Shown: positions 29,943 through 37,834 of the stretch, one piece after another | Layout: each line of letters opens with the position of its first letter | How positions within the stretch are numbered: position 1 is the first letter of the stretch | Source: Nitratiruptor sp. YY08-10 | Lineage (GTDB): Bacteria > Campylobacterota > Campylobacteria > Campylobacterales > Nitratiruptoraceae | Assembly: GCF_016629565.1 (NCBI RefSeq) | Contig: NZ_AP023057.1 | Location: forward strand, 558,001-622,000 | Length of the DNA stretch: 64,000 bases | Direction: 5' to 3' | The notes under the pieces: generated by a model | Databases searched by the model: none | The model's input: the letters and a program-made list of their open reading frames with translations, nothing else | What the model was told of the DNA's origin: nothing | Program-made: the position numbers and the translations under genes

Positions 29943-31292
29943 CTACTTATTGGATTTGGTTTCTATTTTATCCTTTTCAGTCGTTGCAATAATTGCGTAA
30001 ATCTTCATTAACTGTTTTATGAGACTACTGGATGCATCGGCAAGTTCTGAAAATTTCTCAAAGATCTCATCATTTCTATTCTCTTTTTTGAGTCTTAGTA
30101 TCTCAAAAGCGATGGTGTGCACTTGTTTGTGATCTTCTTCTATGTCTTCTAGCAGTGAGATGACTTCAGGGCCATACTTTTTCAACTCTTTAAAAGCTTC
30201 TTGTGAATAGAACCACTTTCCAAAATTACACGACGTATAATCTTTAAGCGTGATATTTTCATAGCCTTCGGTATATTTGGCTGTATCAACCACAAATACC
30301 GAATGATCTTTTATAGCGCTTAAAATTTTTGTAATTGGTTCATTAGGATCAACGGTTGAGCAGTTATCAAATCCTTCTTTTACTTCATCAATGGCTGAAA
30401 GAATACGCTCACCTGTTATATTGGCAAGTTTTTGAACCTGTTGAAGTTCATTATTGAGTTTTTTGATTTCATCACTGAAAGTGTAGATATTTTCTTTTTG
30501 TTTTGTAGTGTATTCTATCTGTTTCGAGATTAGATCCGTTACTTTGTTGCTTGCTTTTTTGATTTTGAAAAAGGATTTGAGTACGTCACTTGCACCCTCG
30601 GCACTGTCTTCAACAATTGTTTTTGCATTACTGACAACTTGAGAGGTATTGTCCATCTCATCCATTACAGAAACGGTCACTTCCCTGATTTCACTGGCAC
30701 TCTTGCTTGTTTTTTCAGCAAGTTTTCGTACTTCGTCAGCTACAACAGCAAATCCTCGTCCAACTTCTCCTGCACGTGCTGCTTCGATTGCAGCATTGAG
30801 CGCAAGCAGGTTGGTTTGTTCTGTAATTTCCAAAATAACGTTTAAAACATGGTCTATTCCACTGATCTTTCGCTTGAGCTCTTCCGTGGTTTTTGTCAGA
30901 TTATCCATTGCCTGGACAGATTGGAGAATATCCTCGTTGGTTTTATTGAGGATGGATTCTCCCTCTTCTATATATTCATTGGTCTCTTTTTGAGTCTGCT
31001 CAATTTGGTGGATACTTTCCATGATTATATCGGTTGTTTTGAGGCTCTCTTTGCTTGTCTGAGTAATTTTTTCGAAAGAGTCATTGAAATTATGAAATCT
31101 ATTCTTGAATCGGTAGATACCAGTTTTTACTAATGCAGATTGGAACAGTCCATCTGCAAGCTTGATTCCGCTGTCGTACCATATGATCTTTTCTTTTTGT
31201 ATCTGCTGTTCCAGTTCTTTCTGACATGTATCTAGTGCTTCTTCACACTCGGTTGTGGTCTCATTTTTCAATTCAATATCTTTTTTCCCCAT
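29943..31292 (-). CDS. Soluble chemoreceptor with C-terminal CZB domain (TlpD-like)
   Basis: 449 residues, no transmembrane helix. Coiled-coil N-terminus, then an intact methyl-accepting signalling tip ([32 protein letters not shown], about 160-190), then a chemoreceptor zinc-binding domain (about 315-435) with the expected ligands: DHSVFV His, CNFGKWFY Cys motif, and EEDHKQVH His residues. This is the layout of Helicobacter TlpD, a cytoplasmic receptor for energy or oxidant signals. It sits in the che operon after cheY. Confidence 0.88.
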
Positions 31293-31306: not shown

Positions 31307-31702
31307 CTATTTTTTTTTCGGTGTAAAAATTGCGCTGATTTTCTCTTTTAGTACTTTTGGTGTGAAAGGTTTGACGATGTAGTTGTTGACCCCACTTTTG
31401 AGAGCCAAAATGATGTTTTCTTTTTTCGCTTCTGCTGTAACCATCAAAATGGGAAGATGCTTGAGTTTTGGATCTTTTCTGATCTCTTGAACAAGTTCGA
31501 TTCCTGTCATATTGGGCATGTTCCAGTCTGTTATTACAAACTGGTAATTGCCGCTTCTTAGTTTTTGCAATGCTACCTGACCATCCTCCGCTTCATCTAC
31601 ATTCTCGTATCCCATCTCTTTCAGAGCATTTTTGAGGATACGGCGGATGGTAGGAGCATCGTCGACAACTAAAATCTTTATGTTTTTATTGGGTAATGCC
31701 AT
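31307..31702 (-). CDS. cheY: Chemotaxis response regulator CheY
   Basis: 131-residue single receiver domain. The acidic pair (VVDDAPT), the phospho-acceptor Asp in FVITDWNMPNMTG (about residue 59), the switch Thr in MVTAEA and the Lys in VKPF are all intact. Phospho-CheY would bind the FliM N-terminus encoded at 36854. The gene follows cheV by eight bases. Confidence 0.95.
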   Translation of the reverse strand: MALPNKNIKILVVDDAPTIRRILKNALKEMGYENVDEAEDGQVALQKLRSGNYQFVITDWNMPNMTGIELVQEIRKDPKLKHLPILMVTAEAKKENIILALKSGVNNYIVKPFTPKVLKEKISAIFTPKKK

Positions 31703-31710
31703 TTATCCTC

Positions 31711-32670
31711 CTATTTTTTTATCGCATATTCGTGTACTATGTGCAGTAGATCTTTCGTATCGAATTTTACAAGATGTGCGTCTGCATTGACAAATTTTGT
31801 TTTATCGACAGTTGCTTTGTCTGACAAAGAGGTGTTGATGACCACTGGAATTTTGGAAAGGACAGGGTCCTCTTTGACCTTTTTGGTAAATGTTAGTCCG
31901 TCCATTCCAGGCATTTCGATATCACTGATAATCAATTGTAGTTTATCTGTAATGTCACTTCCCTCTTTTTGAGCCTCTTCAGCAAGTTCATGTAAAATCT
32001 GCAATCCTTCGATACCACTTTGGGCTTCGATTACAGTATGACCATCTTTTTCCAAAATCGTTCGGATGATTCGTCGTGCCACCGGGCTGTCATCGAGTAT
32101 TAGGATACGATAGTGTTGGCCTGTTTTTTTATACGATCCTTCCTCTTCTACATGGAAAACTTTGATCATTCCAAGTTCATCCAAAATACCTTCAAAATCA
32201 AGAAGCAGGAGAAGTTGACCATTTTCTATCTCGATAACACCCACAACCTTGCCCCCGAGTTTTTCATCTATACTTGCAGGCGGTTTTTTGATATCCGTCC
32301 ATTTGATACGACGTATCCGTCTTGCTTCATGGACCAAAATTCCGATGATTTCACGTAAAAACTCCATGACGATGACGTATTTGTTCTCTTTGTCTTTAGG
32401 AGCTTTGATCTTCATCCATTTTTGAAGATTGACGATAGGAATCACCTCTTCTCTGATTTTCGCCAAACCTTCAACTTCTGGAGGTGATCCGGGAGATTTG
32501 AAGATGTGTTCCGGCTTTTGTATGACCTCTTTTACTTTGGCGACATTGACACCAAGAACCCATTCATACACGGAACCATCTTCGAGCTCTTCATACATCC
32601 GAAAATCGATGATTTCCAGTTCGTTGGCACCTGTTTCGAGAATTTTCGGTAAATAGTCATTCTTTTTCAT
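31711..32670 (-). CDS. cheV: CheV: CheW-receiver coupling protein
   Basis: 319 residues: an N-terminal CheW-like domain (about 20-165) and a C-terminal receiver (about 185-315) with DDSPVARR, the acceptor Asp in IISDIEMPGMDG, and VKFD in place of the usual LKPF near the end. CheV links receptors to CheA and can act as a phosphate sink. Helicobacter and Campylobacter have one to three CheV proteins; one copy is in this window. Confidence 0.92.
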   Translation of the reverse strand: MKKNDYLPKILETGANELEIIDFRMYEELEDGSVYEWVLGVNVAKVKEVIQKPEHIFKSPGSPPEVEGLAKIREEVIPIVNLQKWMKIKAPKDKENKYVIVMEFLREIIGILVHEARRIRRIKWTDIKKPPASIDEKLGGKVVGVIEIENGQLLLLLDFEGILDELGMIKVFHVEEEGSYKKTGQHYRILILDDSPVARRIIRTILEKDGHTVIEAQSGIEGLQILHELAEEAQKEGSDITDKLQLIISDIEMPGMDGLTFTKKVKEDPVLSKIPVVINTSLSDKATVDKTKFVNADAHLVKFDTKDLLHIVHEYAIKK

Positions 32671-32679
32671 CCGCGCCTC

Positions 32680-33198
32680 TTATTCTTGGTTTTCTTGGAT
32701 CTCTTTTTTGTTAAAGAGTTTATCTGTATCGAGTAAGATGAGAAGGTTTCTTTTTGACTGTTCCTTCTCTTGATCGATGATGATAACACCGATAACATAC
32801 TTTGCATCAATACCGATGGAATTGATAGGAGCAGGGAGAATCTCTTCATTCTCTATGGTGATTGCTCCGACTACTTTATCGATCAAAAGACCGATATTGC
32901 CTATTTCGGTATCGATAATCAAAATATATTCTTGATCAATAATATCACTGTTCGGTAAGTTGAGCATCTTTTTAAGATTGACAACAGGTACGATGTTGCC
33001 TCTTAAATTCATGACCCCGACGATATATTCGGGAGTTTTTGGTACAGGTGATATATCGAGTTTTTTTGTGATTTTTGTTACGTTTTTTATATTGATGCCG
33101 ATAAGTTCGTCGTTTAACATGAAAGCTATAACGCGTTCTTCCTCTTTAATAGATTGGGTTATATTTTCATCGATACCGAATACTTGCATTTCACCCAT
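32680..33198 (-). CDS. cheW: Chemotaxis coupling protein CheW
   Basis: 172 residues forming the double beta-barrel CheW fold: VIAFMLNDELIGINI near the start, YIVGVMNLRGNIVPVVNLKKML in the middle and GLLIDKVVGAITIENEEILPAP later. It couples receptors to CheA. The start overlaps the last base of the cheA stop (33198), so the pair is translationally coupled. Confidence 0.95.
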   Translation of the reverse strand: MGEMQVFGIDENITQSIKEEERVIAFMLNDELIGINIKNVTKITKKLDISPVPKTPEYIVGVMNLRGNIVPVVNLKKMLNLPNSDIIDQEYILIIDTEIGNIGLLIDKVVGAITIENEEILPAPINSIGIDAKYVIGVIIIDQEKEQSKRNLLILLDTDKLFNKKEIQENQE

Positions 33199-35219
33199 CA
33201 GATAACTCCTATAAGTTCATTTCTTTTATCACTGATAAGTGATTTGATATCCAAAATCAAAACCACTTTTCCATCACCTGTGATTGTTGCACCGGCAATA
33301 CCCTGGACATCTTTGAGCATTTCACCCAGCGGTTTTATAACGATCTCCTCTTCGCCAAAAAGATCGTCTACAGCAATTGCGATATTTTTCTCCCCGATGT
33401 TTAGGATGATTACAAATTTCTCGTGATCGTTGCTTTCAAGATCAAAAAGTTCGTTCAAATGAAAGAAGAGATACACCTCGTCTCTGAGGACCAAAGATTT
33501 GTATGTACCAACATCTTTGATATCATCGGGATTGTATTTGATAATTTCTACGACGCTAAAAAGAGGGATAGCGAAGATTCTATCATTGGATCCAACCATC
33601 AATGTTCTGATAATTGCTACCGTCAAAGGTAGTTTCATCGTGATTTTTGTGCCTTTACCGGGTTCGCTTTCGATCTCTATGGCACCTCGTAAGGAGTGGA
33701 TAACATTGGCTACTACATCCATACCCACGCCACGACCGGAAATTTCGCTGACCTCTTCAACGGTAGAAAATCCTGGCATAAAAATCAATTCATATGCCTC
33801 TTTATCGCTCATTTGAGCTGCTTGTTCCGGAGTAATCAGTCCTTTTTCAATCGCTTTTCGTTTAACTTTATCAGCATCGATGCCCCGTCCGTCATCTTCA
33901 ATGAATACGATAATTCTATCCCCTTCTTGTAAAGCAGAGAGTATAATATGTCCGGTTTCGGGTTTTCCTTTGGCAATACGCTCTTCAGGTGGTTCGATTC
34001 CATGGTCAATAGAATTCCGTACAAGGTGTATGAGTGGGTCTTCGAGTTGATTGAGAATACTGCGGTCGATTTCTGTATCTTCACCTTCCAAAATAAGTTC
34101 GATCTTTTTACCCATTTTTTTTGCGAGATCGCGAACGATACGCGGAAATTTGCTAAATATCCGTTTGACCGGTTGCATTCTTAGTTTCATAACGACTTCC
34201 TGTAGATCCGAAACCGATCGGCTCATACCGGCAATCGCTTCATTCAGTTCCTCTACCGCTTCAGAGTCTTCACAGTTGGTTCGAAGACGAGAGGTGAGCT
34301 TGACAATTCTGTTTCTATCAAGAACGAGTTCTCCTACGAGATTCATCAATGTGCTTACTCTCTCTATATCTATACGGATTGTTTCCGTTTCCTCTTTCTT
34401 CTGTTTTGGTTTGGGTGCTGTTTTTGATTTTTCCGGTACTGTAACCGGTGCCTTTTCTTCTTGCTTGGTCGCAACAGCAGGCTGCTCTTTGACTTCTGGT
34501 TCGATTATGCGTCTTTCTTTGATAAGATCTTCAACATCTTTTCCTTCGTTGATGAGCTCATCCAGTTTCATGATAAGATCCATATCCCGCTCTTCTGGAG
34601 GCAAAAGTATGAGATCGTCGAGAATCTCTTTGAAATTTTTTCCAGGGTGTTCGCGGATCAGCTGCTGTATCTTTTCATCCACATCATCATGGAAAATGAT
34701 TTCTTCTTTTACAGAATTGTCGTTTGAGGGTTCTTGTGCTGCCTCGGATGGTTCTTGTTCTATCTCGCTACCAATTTGTTCATGTTCAGACGATTCGTTT
34801 GCTTGAAATGATTCAGGATTTTCTAAAATGTGATTGAGTTTGTCCAGCAGCGGCTTGATCTCATCAACATCAGGAATCTCATTTTCTGATTTTAATGTCT
34901 CAATAGCAGATTTGAGAACGTCTATTCCCTCTAAAATAACATCCATCATATCAGATGTCAAAGTCATCTCATTATTGCGGAGTTTATCAAAAATACTTTC
35001 AATAACGTGAGCCAATTCGATAATACTTTCTAAGCCTAAAAAACCGGCTCCGCCCTTTAGGGTATGCATTCCTCTGAATATTTCATTGAGAAGATCCCTG
35101 TTTGTAGGATCACTTTCGAGTTCTATCAGTTCTTGATCAAGGTTTTCTATGATTTCTTCGGCTTCCTGTACAAACTCGTCTAAAATCTCTTGCATATCTT
35201 CACTGACATTCACTCTCAT
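33198..35219 (-). CDS. cheA: Chemotaxis histidine kinase CheA, without a receiver domain
   Basis: 673 residues. Hpt domain with acceptor His52 (GMHTLKGGAGF), a charged linker (about 135-285) in place of a clear P2 domain, the dimerisation helices (STLMNLVGELVLDRNRI), an ATPase domain (HLVRNSIDHGIEPPEER, DDGRGID, SGRGVGMDVV), and a C-terminal CheW-like regulatory domain ending the protein. Helicobacter and Campylobacter CheA carries an extra C-terminal receiver (CheAY); this one does not. It follows the CheZ-like gene by four bases. Confidence 0.95.
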   Translation of the reverse strand: MRVNVSEDMQEILDEFVQEAEEIIENLDQELIELESDPTNRDLLNEIFRGMHTLKGGAGFLGLESIIELAHVIESIFDKLRNNEMTLTSDMMDVILEGIDVLKSAIETLKSENEIPDVDEIKPLLDKLNHILENPESFQANESSEHEQIGSEIEQEPSEAAQEPSNDNSVKEEIIFHDDVDEKIQQLIREHPGKNFKEILDDLILLPPEERDMDLIMKLDELINEGKDVEDLIKERRIIEPEVKEQPAVATKQEEKAPVTVPEKSKTAPKPKQKKEETETIRIDIERVSTLMNLVGELVLDRNRIVKLTSRLRTNCEDSEAVEELNEAIAGMSRSVSDLQEVVMKLRMQPVKRIFSKFPRIVRDLAKKMGKKIELILEGEDTEIDRSILNQLEDPLIHLVRNSIDHGIEPPEERIAKGKPETGHIILSALQEGDRIIVFIEDDGRGIDADKVKRKAIEKGLITPEQAAQMSDKEAYELIFMPGFSTVEEVSEISGRGVGMDVVANVIHSLRGAIEIESEPGKGTKITMKLPLTVAIIRTLMVGSNDRIFAIPLFSVVEIIKYNPDDIKDVGTYKSLVLRDEVYLFFHLNELFDLESNDHEKFVIILNIGEKNIAIAVDDLFGEEEIVIKPLGEMLKDVQGIAGATITGDGKVVLILDIKSLISDKRNELIGVI

Positions 35220-35223
35220 CTAT

Positions 35224-35568
35224 CTATCCTTTGTATTCATTAAACATTCTGTCGATATCACTTTGATCTACCTCTTTTTCCCATGCAAATTCGTCTAAAA
35301 ATCTTTTATCTTTTTCCAGTTCAATGTTTTCATCTATCATAGTTAGAAAATCTGAAACTTTTTTTAATCTTTGAACGATGATATCCTCCAATTGCAAAAC
35401 GGCAATAGTTTCATTAATCTTTTCATGCATTTGTGGATCTATTATCTGTTTTTGGATTTCCTGAAGGGTGTGCAATATGGAGTTGGAACACTTAGTAACT
35501 TCTTGTGAGGCAAGATCAAGATGTTGAATTGCTATATTTATATGTTCATTATGATATCTTTTTTTCAT
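35224..35568 (-). CDS. Minimal CheZ-like phosphatase of CheY
   Basis: 114 residues, entirely helical. A hairpin of two long helices contains D62-x3-Q66 in LEDIIVQRLKKV, matching the spacing of the catalytic Asp143/Gln147 pair of E. coli CheZ (DFQDLTGQ). The C-terminal tail DQSDIDRMFNEYKG resembles CheY-binding peptides such as the FliM start SQEEIDALL. It is about half the length of E. coli CheZ and heads the che operon. The fold and role are inferred from these motifs and the location. It could instead be an unrelated small che protein. Confidence 0.6.
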   Translation of the reverse strand: MKKRYHNEHINIAIQHLDLASQEVTKCSNSILHTLQEIQKQIIDPQMHEKINETIAVLQLEDIIVQRLKKVSDFLTMIDENIELEKDKRFLDEFAWEKEVDQSDIDRMFNEYKG

Positions 35569-35717: not shown

Positions 35718-36743
35718 GTGTCCGAAGAAAAGAAAAAGGTGCATTTAACAAAACTGCAAAAAGCTGCTATTTTGATCTCTGCACTTCCCGAAGATATTAG
35801 TGTACAAATTTTTAAAAAATTGAAAGATTTTGAAGTAGAAAGGATTGTTAAAACAATTTTGATGCTTGAAACTCCATCAAAAGAATCAGTTTTAGAAGTC
35901 CTGAAAGAGGCCTACGATAATTTAAAAGAGGCTTCTCCAGTAAAAATAGCACCTGATCATCTCAAAAAGATTTTACAAAAGGCTCTTCCTCCTGAAGTTT
36001 TAGAAAAACTTTTAAATCAAACATTTGATGAGGAAGAGTTTAAAGCAATATTTAAAGAGTTGGAAAAACTCGATCCAAAAATGGTAGCAAATCTTATTAA
36101 AAATGAACATCCCCAGGTAATTGCTCTTATCCTCTCTCAACTTAAACCTTCCGTAGCAGCAGAGATATTACAGTATATTCCCAAAAGAGCGGGAGTAACC
36201 AATGTGCAAGAAGAAGTGATAAAAAGAATTGCATCTATAGAAAAAATCAATGCTCAGACACTAAAAATCGTAGCCAATACATTAGAAGAAGAGTTGCTAA
36301 CCATTGGTGCAGGAACGGAAGAGACATTGAGTGGCATCGATATCGCAGCAGAAATAGTCAATGCTTTACCGAAAGAGGTACAAGTAGAGCTTCTTGAAGA
36401 AGTCCGTAAAGAGGATGAAATTTTGGCAGATAACATCGAAGAGAGAATGTTTAAGTTTGAAGATATTTTGAAGCTTGACAATAAAGCGATTATTGAAATT
36501 TTGAAAAATGTCGATAAAAACGTTTTGATGATGGCTCTCAAAGGTGCTCCTCAAGAGATATTGGACAAATTTTTATCCAATATGTCCAAGCGTGCGGCTG
36601 AAATGTTTTTGGAAGATATGGAAGTCTTGGGTCCAGTGAAGAAAAGTGATGTGGAAAAGGCTCAGAAGAAAATCATCGAAGAGATTAAAAATTTGATCAA
36701 TAAAGGTGTGATCGAGTTCGGAAGTGGAGAAGAGTACGTGTAA
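35718..36743 (+). CDS. fliG: Flagellar motor switch protein FliG
   Basis: 341 residues. The N-terminal domain binds FliF; the middle domain has the EHPQ motif (KNEHPQVIALILSQL); the C-terminal domain has the MFKFEDILKLDNKAI segment and the torque helix with charged residues for contact with the stator. It starts on GTG at 35718, with AAGGAT five bases upstream; the overlapping ATG at 35716 is out of frame. It stands at the head of the flagellar cluster, divergent from che, and is 16 kb from fliF, its usual neighbour. Confidence 0.95.
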   Translation: MSEEKKKVHLTKLQKAAILISALPEDISVQIFKKLKDFEVERIVKTILMLETPSKESVLEVLKEAYDNLKEASPVKIAPDHLKKILQKALPPEVLEKLLNQTFDEEEFKAIFKELEKLDPKMVANLIKNEHPQVIALILSQLKPSVAAEILQYIPKRAGVTNVQEEVIKRIASIEKINAQTLKIVANTLEEELLTIGAGTEETLSGIDIAAEIVNALPKEVQVELLEEVRKEDEILADNIEERMFKFEDILKLDNKAIIEILKNVDKNVLMMALKGAPQEILDKFLSNMSKRAAEMFLEDMEVLGPVKKSDVEKAQKKIIEEIKNLINKGVIEFGSGEEYV

Positions 36744-36853: not shown

Positions 36854-37834
36854 ATGTCTGAACAGGATTTCTTGTCTCAAGAAGAGATAGATGCACTGCT
36901 TGGAGGCGGTGAGTCGGAAGCAGAAGAGGAGAGCAGTGTTGAAGAGCTTTCAGATATTCGACCCTTTGATTTTGATGAATTAGAGAGTATAAAAAAAGGG
37001 GGATTCCCAGGCCTTGAGCTCATTTATGAGCGATGGGTGAAGCTTTTTCGAGAAGAGGTTCGCAAAGTTCTTCCAAAAATCAACATGGTCTCCAAAGAAT
37101 CCATCTATATCACCCGTTTCAATAACTTTATGTTCAATATTCCCATGCCGTCAAGCTATACCACATTTACGATGAGGCCTTTGAAAGAGACAGCTCTTTT
37201 GGTTATAGACTCAAGACTTGTTTTTACTGTTATCAGTGTTATGTTTGGAGGTCCCGCAAAACCGTTTAAAGTAGAAGGTAGAGAATTTACAAAACTGGAA
37301 ACCTATGTGATCAAAGATTTTATCGATATAGCATTGGAGTCACTGCAAGATGTTTTCAGCGCAGTTTATCCAGTTGATGTTGAAAAAAAGTCGATAGAAC
37401 TCAATCCCGCTTTGGCAAAGATAACTTCGGGAAATGAAAAGGTAATTATTTCGGAATGTATTGTGGATATCGACGGTTTTGAGGCCCCTATCTATTTCTG
37501 TTTTCCACACGGGATGTTTTTACCTATCAAAGAGATTATTTACAGTGAATTTCAAGGAGAGGTCGATCCTGTATGGAAAAAAAGAGTCCATGAGATTTTA
37601 TTGCAAACCGATGTGAAAGTTGCTTTGGAACTTCCAAAACAGACCTATTTGATGAAGGATGTGCTACAATGGAAGGAAGGAATGGAACTTGTATTGGATA
37701 TCGAAAAAGATGAGGATGCATATTTGCGAATTTCTGATAAATACAAGTTTCGTTGTAAAGTTGGAAAAATAAAAGAAAAATATGCGGCACTCCTAAAAAC
37801 AGAGCATCAAGAAGAGGAAGCAGAGAATGAGTGA
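36854..37834 (+). CDS. fliM: Flagellar motor switch protein FliM
   Basis: 326 residues. The N-terminal CheY-binding peptide is intact (LSQEEIDALLGG). A CheC-like middle domain and a C-terminal FliN-like (SpoA) domain follow. FliM forms most of the C-ring and receives phospho-CheY. Its end overlaps the fliN start by eight bases. Confidence 0.95.
   Translation: MSEQDFLSQEEIDALLGGGESEAEEESSVEELSDIRPFDFDELESIKKGGFPGLELIYERWVKLFREEVRKVLPKINMVSKESIYITRFNNFMFNIPMPSSYTTFTMRPLKETALLVIDSRLVFTVISVMFGGPAKPFKVEGREFTKLETYVIKDFIDIALESLQDVFSAVYPVDVEKKSIELNPALAKITSGNEKVIISECIVDIDGFEAPIYFCFPHGMFLPIKEIIYSEFQGEVDPVWKKRVHEILLQTDVKVALELPKQTYLMKDVLQWKEGMELVLDIEKDEDAYLRISDKYKFRCKVGKIKEKYAALLKTEHQEEEAENE

Follow-up and report, generated by a model that had tools for sequence, protein, structure and literature searches.

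The window analyzed here, 64,000 nucleotides of the Nitratiruptor sp. YY08-10 genome (contig NZ_AP023057.1), carries a che operon whose first gene encodes a protein of 114 residues and is followed by cheA, cheW, cheV, cheY and an MCP gene (Table 1). The ORF starts with ATG, has AAAGGG about 10 nt upstream of the start, and stops 4 nt ahead of the cheA ATG at 35219. The start of fliG lies 150 bp away on the opposite strand. Our search of the window for sigma-54 promoters returned none above chance, and sigma-70-like sites near the start of the first gene were at chance level. A preliminary description made from the sequence alone had proposed that this ORF heads the che operon and encodes a reduced CheZ, with D62-x3-Q66 in the CheZ catalytic spacing and QSDIDRMF among the last residues. 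The 114-residue ORF and its leading position were confirmed, and both motifs are present in the translation, in which QSDIDRMF is followed by NEYKG.

Table 1. Features of the che operon and adjoining flagellar genes, in window coordinates
Feature	Position	Strand	Basis or remark
short cheZ-like gene, 114 aa	35224-35568	minus	first gene of the che operon
DxxxQ putative catalytic motif codons, D62-I-I-V-Q66	35371..35385	minus	translation; aligns to the DxxxQ of F3 CheZ
FAWEKE block and putative CheY-binding tail, F94-G114	35227..35289	minus	invariant residues; match of a homologue to the end of PF04344
cheA	33198..35219	minus	Pfam: Hpt, H-kinase_dim, HATPase_c and CheW domains
cheW	32680..33198	minus	CheW-like sequence and operon position, without Pfam scan; orthologue follows cheA in relatives
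cheV (CheW + receiver)	31711..32670	minus	Pfam
cheY, expected substrate	31307..31702	minus	59% identity to E. coli CheY
MCP with chemoreceptor zinc-binding (CZB) domain	29943..31292	minus	Pfam; in the che operon
fliG, divergent neighbor	35718..36743	plus	sequence and position; conserved neighbor
fliM, N-terminus FLSQEEIDALLGGG = CheY-binding peptide	36854..37834	plus	ORF list and sequence

Conservation of the short gene

Orthologues were recovered from 20 of the 22 genomes of the GTDB family Nitratiruptoraceae, with 30-80% identity to the 114-aa protein; the relatives with named records that carry one are recorded as Nitratiruptor and Campylobacterales. All 20 loci have the orthologue as the immediate upstream neighbor of cheA, on the cheA strand. 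The two genomes that lack the gene either gave no cheA match (G006) or contain cheA only as a C-terminal fragment (residues 497-673; G009). Since neither assembly includes the start of cheA, neither shows a real loss, and the gene is present in every family genome with an assembled cheA 5' end. Orthologue lengths run from 107 to 122 aa in two genera, and a third genus has a 171-aa form. Viral contigs were searched and gave no relative.

Thirteen residues are invariant in the 19 members that we aligned (A13, H16, E23, D62, I63, Q66, R67, F74, F94, W96, E99, Q102 and D106), and they map to the DxxxQ motif, to one face of helix 1 and to the tail region. The residues before the putative catalytic Asp are LE in the 114-aa protein and FQ in most CheZs. 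We counted ORFs of at least 50 aa in the collected loci that combine [aromatic/M/L..][Q/E..]DxxxQ with a QxxIDxLL-like tail. The two elements co-occur in 46 of 1519, every one of which is either a CheZ or a member of the Nitratiruptoraceae short family; among the 283 ORFs of the window, only the 114-aa protein has both. Judged by this conservation, the ORF is not a chance ORF, and the reduced form is a conserved trait of the family rather than a one-off truncation.

Relationship to CheZ

CheZ is the enzyme whose action ends the ‘change direction’ signal. The preliminary description had pointed to CheZ and to the remote CheZ of Helicobacter as the profiles to compare, and homology was found, although at scores below the Pfam cut-off. 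The 114-aa protein did not match PF04344 in the Pfam search, and searching the host genome with PF04344 found nothing. Within the family, PF04344 touched 5 of 19 members, all below the cut-off. The best of these matches was the 171-aa member of G017 (E=1e-5; 25.9 bits against a gathering score of 30.7), and its alignment extends from catalytic helix 2 to the last residue of the tail (profile positions 107-202/203). The cut-off was passed by only 1 of the 99 Campylobacterota genomes with a PF04344 match. Accepted F3 CheZs thus mostly miss the threshold as well, and we therefore file the short family as a divergent CheZ homologue, not as a member of PF04344.

The best profile match of the short family was the F3-class Campylobacterota CheZ (the Helicobacter/Campylobacter-type ‘remote CheZ’). 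The two share DxxxQ in a QDIxxQ[RK] context, the helix-1 glutamate within a stretch resembling [E/D]SEExAT, and the C-terminal tail. They differ in that F3 CheZs are about 220-260 aa long, with a longer hairpin and, at the N-terminus, an additional FliM-like peptide (MTQEELDALM), and are encoded away from cheA (PMC9321776). Profile-profile comparison gave a probability of 80 with the F3 CheZs collected by PF04344 alone and of 94.9 with a wider F3 set, which includes sequences found by the short-family profile itself; in both alignments DxxxQ falls on DxxxQ and tail on tail. None of 300 column shuffles reached the family-versus-F3 CheZ score. Helical controls from the same operon scored 18-24 (four controls) and 31 (one MCP segment) against F3 CheZ, compared to 37 for the short family. 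With a receptor segment at 31, the profile score alone is suggestive, and it is the motif register and the gene context that carry weight.

The match to E. coli-type CheZ was weak (probability 2), yet it outscored 300 shuffles as well as the five helical controls, and DxxxQ is again aligned with DxxxQ. In seven sister genomes, the reverse search with an F3 CheZ profile picked out exactly the short cheZ-like gene (E values from 4e-5 to 0.015); it did not pick the gene in the window's own genome. The short-family profile retrieved F3 CheZ loci that PF04344 also finds. A sequence search of the PDB gave nothing meaningful for the 114-aa protein or the family profile. From these comparisons we regard the short family as a divergent CheZ.

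Predicted structure

AlphaFold2 was run on 14 natural sequences as monomers. The models show a helix at residues 8-41, a turn at about 42-44 and helices at 45-58 and 60-81 (pLDDT about 90-94), followed by a low-confidence linker and a weaker tail helix at 102-112. D62 and Q66 sit on helix 60-81, the second helix of the predicted hairpin. The preliminary description had named a dimeric four-helix bundle as the fold to look for and had seen in the protein no more than a hairpin and a tail; the monomer models bear out the hairpin half of that fold, and their content, namely a two-helix hairpin, a linker and a tail, agrees with the second point. Foldseek and VIA-align returned only generic helical hairpins, with CheZ absent from their lists. 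Two-helix hairpins are a common shape, so the fold search speaks neither for nor against CheZ, of which the PDB holds one sequence only, 1KMI.

E. coli CheZ (214 aa, PF04344, 1KMI) consists of an N-terminal helix (residues 1-34), a hairpin (35-168), a linker (169-199) and a C-terminal helix (199-214) (PMC7750401). The short family resembles it in having DxxxQ on the second hairpin helix, the linker and the tail, and differs in having neither the N-terminal helix nor the apical half of the hairpin, which is reduced to about 74 residues. The putative catalytic Asp is about 18 residues from the turn in the short family and about 43 in E. coli CheZ, from which it follows that the tip that binds CheA-short is absent. 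Since the E. coli tip, with F97/W98, binds CheA-short (PMC7750401), recruitment by this route is not expected of the minimal protein. A shorter CheZ bundle is also reported in Azorhizobium caulinodans (PMC7750401), and the apical tip is a variable rather than a defining feature of CheZ.

The C-terminal tail

CheY binds the CheZ C-terminal helix and the FliM N-terminus, two similar peptides, on one and the same face. The last residues of the protein had been likened to the FliM peptide, and the likeness is genuine, as the Nitratiruptor tails (QDDIDAMFNEYKG) look closer to FliM (QEEIDALLGGG). The tail of the sister genus g2 is QNDVDDILKSYGL and that of E. coli CheZ is QDQVDDLLDSLGF. Resemblance to FliM is expected of peptides that both bind CheY, so that borrowing from FliM need not be invoked, and we consider the tail homologous to the C-terminal CheY-binding helix of CheZ itself. 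Apart from this likeness to its N-terminal peptide, FliM had no match in the 114-aa protein, and the genuine fliM is a separate gene of the window (Table 1).

Ahead of the tail is a FAWE(N/K)E block (35272-35289, minus strand) that is near-invariant in Nitratiruptoraceae and absent from the other CheZs examined. When six genomes were searched with a 24-residue peptide made up of this block and the tail, each gave the short cheZ-like gene as its only match. The block appears to be the most distinctive feature of the short family.

Putative role as a CheY-P phosphatase

Nitratiruptor is reported to have lost the F3 genes for chemosensing and flagella that were native to it, and to have taken up an F14 system together with its flagellar cluster from Aquificota, the claimed donor being Persephonella (PMC9321776). 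The host CheY shares 59% identity with that of E. coli and retains the stretches DWNMPNM and VTAEAKKENII; with the surroundings of the phosphorylation site and of KENII preserved, a CheZ partner is expected. Searches of the family revealed no full-length CheZ, and CheX and CheC/FliY (PF13690, PF04509) had no match in the 22 family genomes or in the 114-aa protein. A short CheZ within the F14 cluster would complete the chemotaxis pathway and fill a gap in a system where the CheZ, CheX and CheC Pfam models are all without a hit. The short protein is probably the sole CheY-P phosphatase of Nitratiruptoraceae.

In our assessment the best explanation, and a highly probable one, is that the 114-aa protein is a minimal CheZ made up of the active-site part of the hairpin and the CheY-binding tail. 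The earlier reading of a reduced CheZ is upheld by the profiles, the motif register, the operon position, the predicted hairpin and the failure to detect another CheY-P phosphatase family; from these we infer the activity.

We considered whether the protein could instead be an adaptor that binds CheY-P without catalysis, the tail sequestering CheY-P or docking it near CheA or the array and the hairpin serving merely as a dimerizer. The hairpin is indeed short, and the tail and FAWENE block are conserved at least as well as the catalytic region. Nevertheless, D62 and Q66 do not vary across 19 sequences whose identity to the 114-aa protein is only 30-80%, and no other phosphatase family for CheY-P was detected, which makes the adaptor improbable. 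It is less probable still that this is an unrelated small helical protein, such as a flagellar export co-chaperone or a FliJ/FlgN-like hairpin, that precedes cheA by chance. The structure search does yield many unrelated hairpins, and the sole Pfam hit of the 114-aa protein was FliS_cochap (E=0.012, far under the cut-off). However, that hit occurs in 1 of 19 members, compared to 5 of 19 for CheZ, DxxxQ and the tail are in register with CheZ, and the linkage to cheA is strict over 20 loci. Identity with the FliS co-chaperone was rejected on the sub-threshold score and the single member. Rhizobial CheS is a short che-operon protein that is linked to cheA and binds CheA (PMC12654446), but a regulator of that kind, acting on phosphotransfer instead of CheY-P hydrolysis, is very unlikely here despite the position of the gene directly before cheA, because a CheZ-type catalytic motif and a CheY-binding tail would not be expected in it.

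For the minimal CheZ we propose a mechanism by analogy with the E. coli enzyme. A short four-helix bundle would probably form from two chains, each contributing a hairpin with helix 1 at about 8-41 and helix 2 at about 45-81, and the C-terminal helix (about 99-112), on its loose linker, would catch the FliM-binding face of CheY-P. D62 would then position the region of the CheY active-site lysine and Mg2+, while Q66 would insert into the active site and orient the water that attacks the aspartyl-phosphate. In E. coli CheZ these catalytic roles are played by D143 and Q147.

If the reading holds, the minimal part list of a CheZ would come down to a hairpin with the active site and a tail that binds CheY, and this small protein of a deep-sea vent bacterium would allow one to ask how a CheZ can function when it has neither the CheA-binding tip nor the N-terminal helix. 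Length filters miss such proteins, as in the criteria of PMC2829493, by which a CheZ alignment must run past residue 180 of a query of 214 aa. We also put forward, tentatively and as a rather doubtful extension, that Nitratiruptoraceae use one of the smallest free-standing CheZs, tip-less and CheA-independent, in which the new, invariant FAWENE block replaces the tip as a docking or regulatory element, and that excision of the hairpin tip gave rise to such a form on more than one occasion within Campylobacterota.

Short and divergent CheZs in other bacteria

Short CheZs are not unique to Nitratiruptoraceae. CheT of Sinorhizobium/Agrobacterium is described as a remote CheZ that has DXXXQ, resembles CheZ in its AlphaFold model and dephosphorylates one CheY (Agbekudzi 2024, as summarized in PMC12654446). 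The short family is likened to it by that description, not by sequence, both being remote CheZ-like proteins of che clusters with DXXXQ; by the same summary CheT differs in being alphaproteobacterial, in not adjoining cheA and in binding CheR (PMC12654446).

Other Campylobacterales encode CheZ-like proteins of 111-129 aa and 152-161 aa (L042, L043, L047, L048, L050, L053 and L056). These resemble the short family in their short hairpin with DxxxQ and their acidic C-terminal tail, and differ from it in being clearly derived from F3 CheZ and in lacking the FAWENE block. Aligned with F3 CheZ, they lack the hairpin tip, and the shortest of them lack the N-terminal peptide too. With tip-less forms in other Campylobacterales families, reduction of CheZ appears to be recurrent. 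In L042, L043, L048, L053 and L056 (around 1400-1850), the short genes, encoding 111-152 aa, adjoin a truD-like gene and an MCP gene, not cheA, and most of their products are without the N-terminal peptide. The F3 CheZs of loci L057-L086 combine the N-terminal FliM-like MTQEELDALM with a C-terminal tail, so that each chain may hold two CheY-binding peptides.

Two proteins of Carboxydothermus islandicus (L034:5317-6285 and L035:1668-2603, both plus strand; 311-322 aa) join an MCP signaling domain (Pfam E ~1e-13) to a CheZ-like NFQFQDIIAQRLNNVI and end in a short tail, AELLNNVEFF; one of them is encoded directly upstream of a cheY-like gene. They are possible receptor-phosphatase fusions. Another very divergent short CheZ is possibly represented by the 139-aa protein at L052:1420-1839 (plus strand), which has VAIQLQDIISQQF (DxxxQ) and an acidic tail and is encoded between CheB-like and response-regulator genes.
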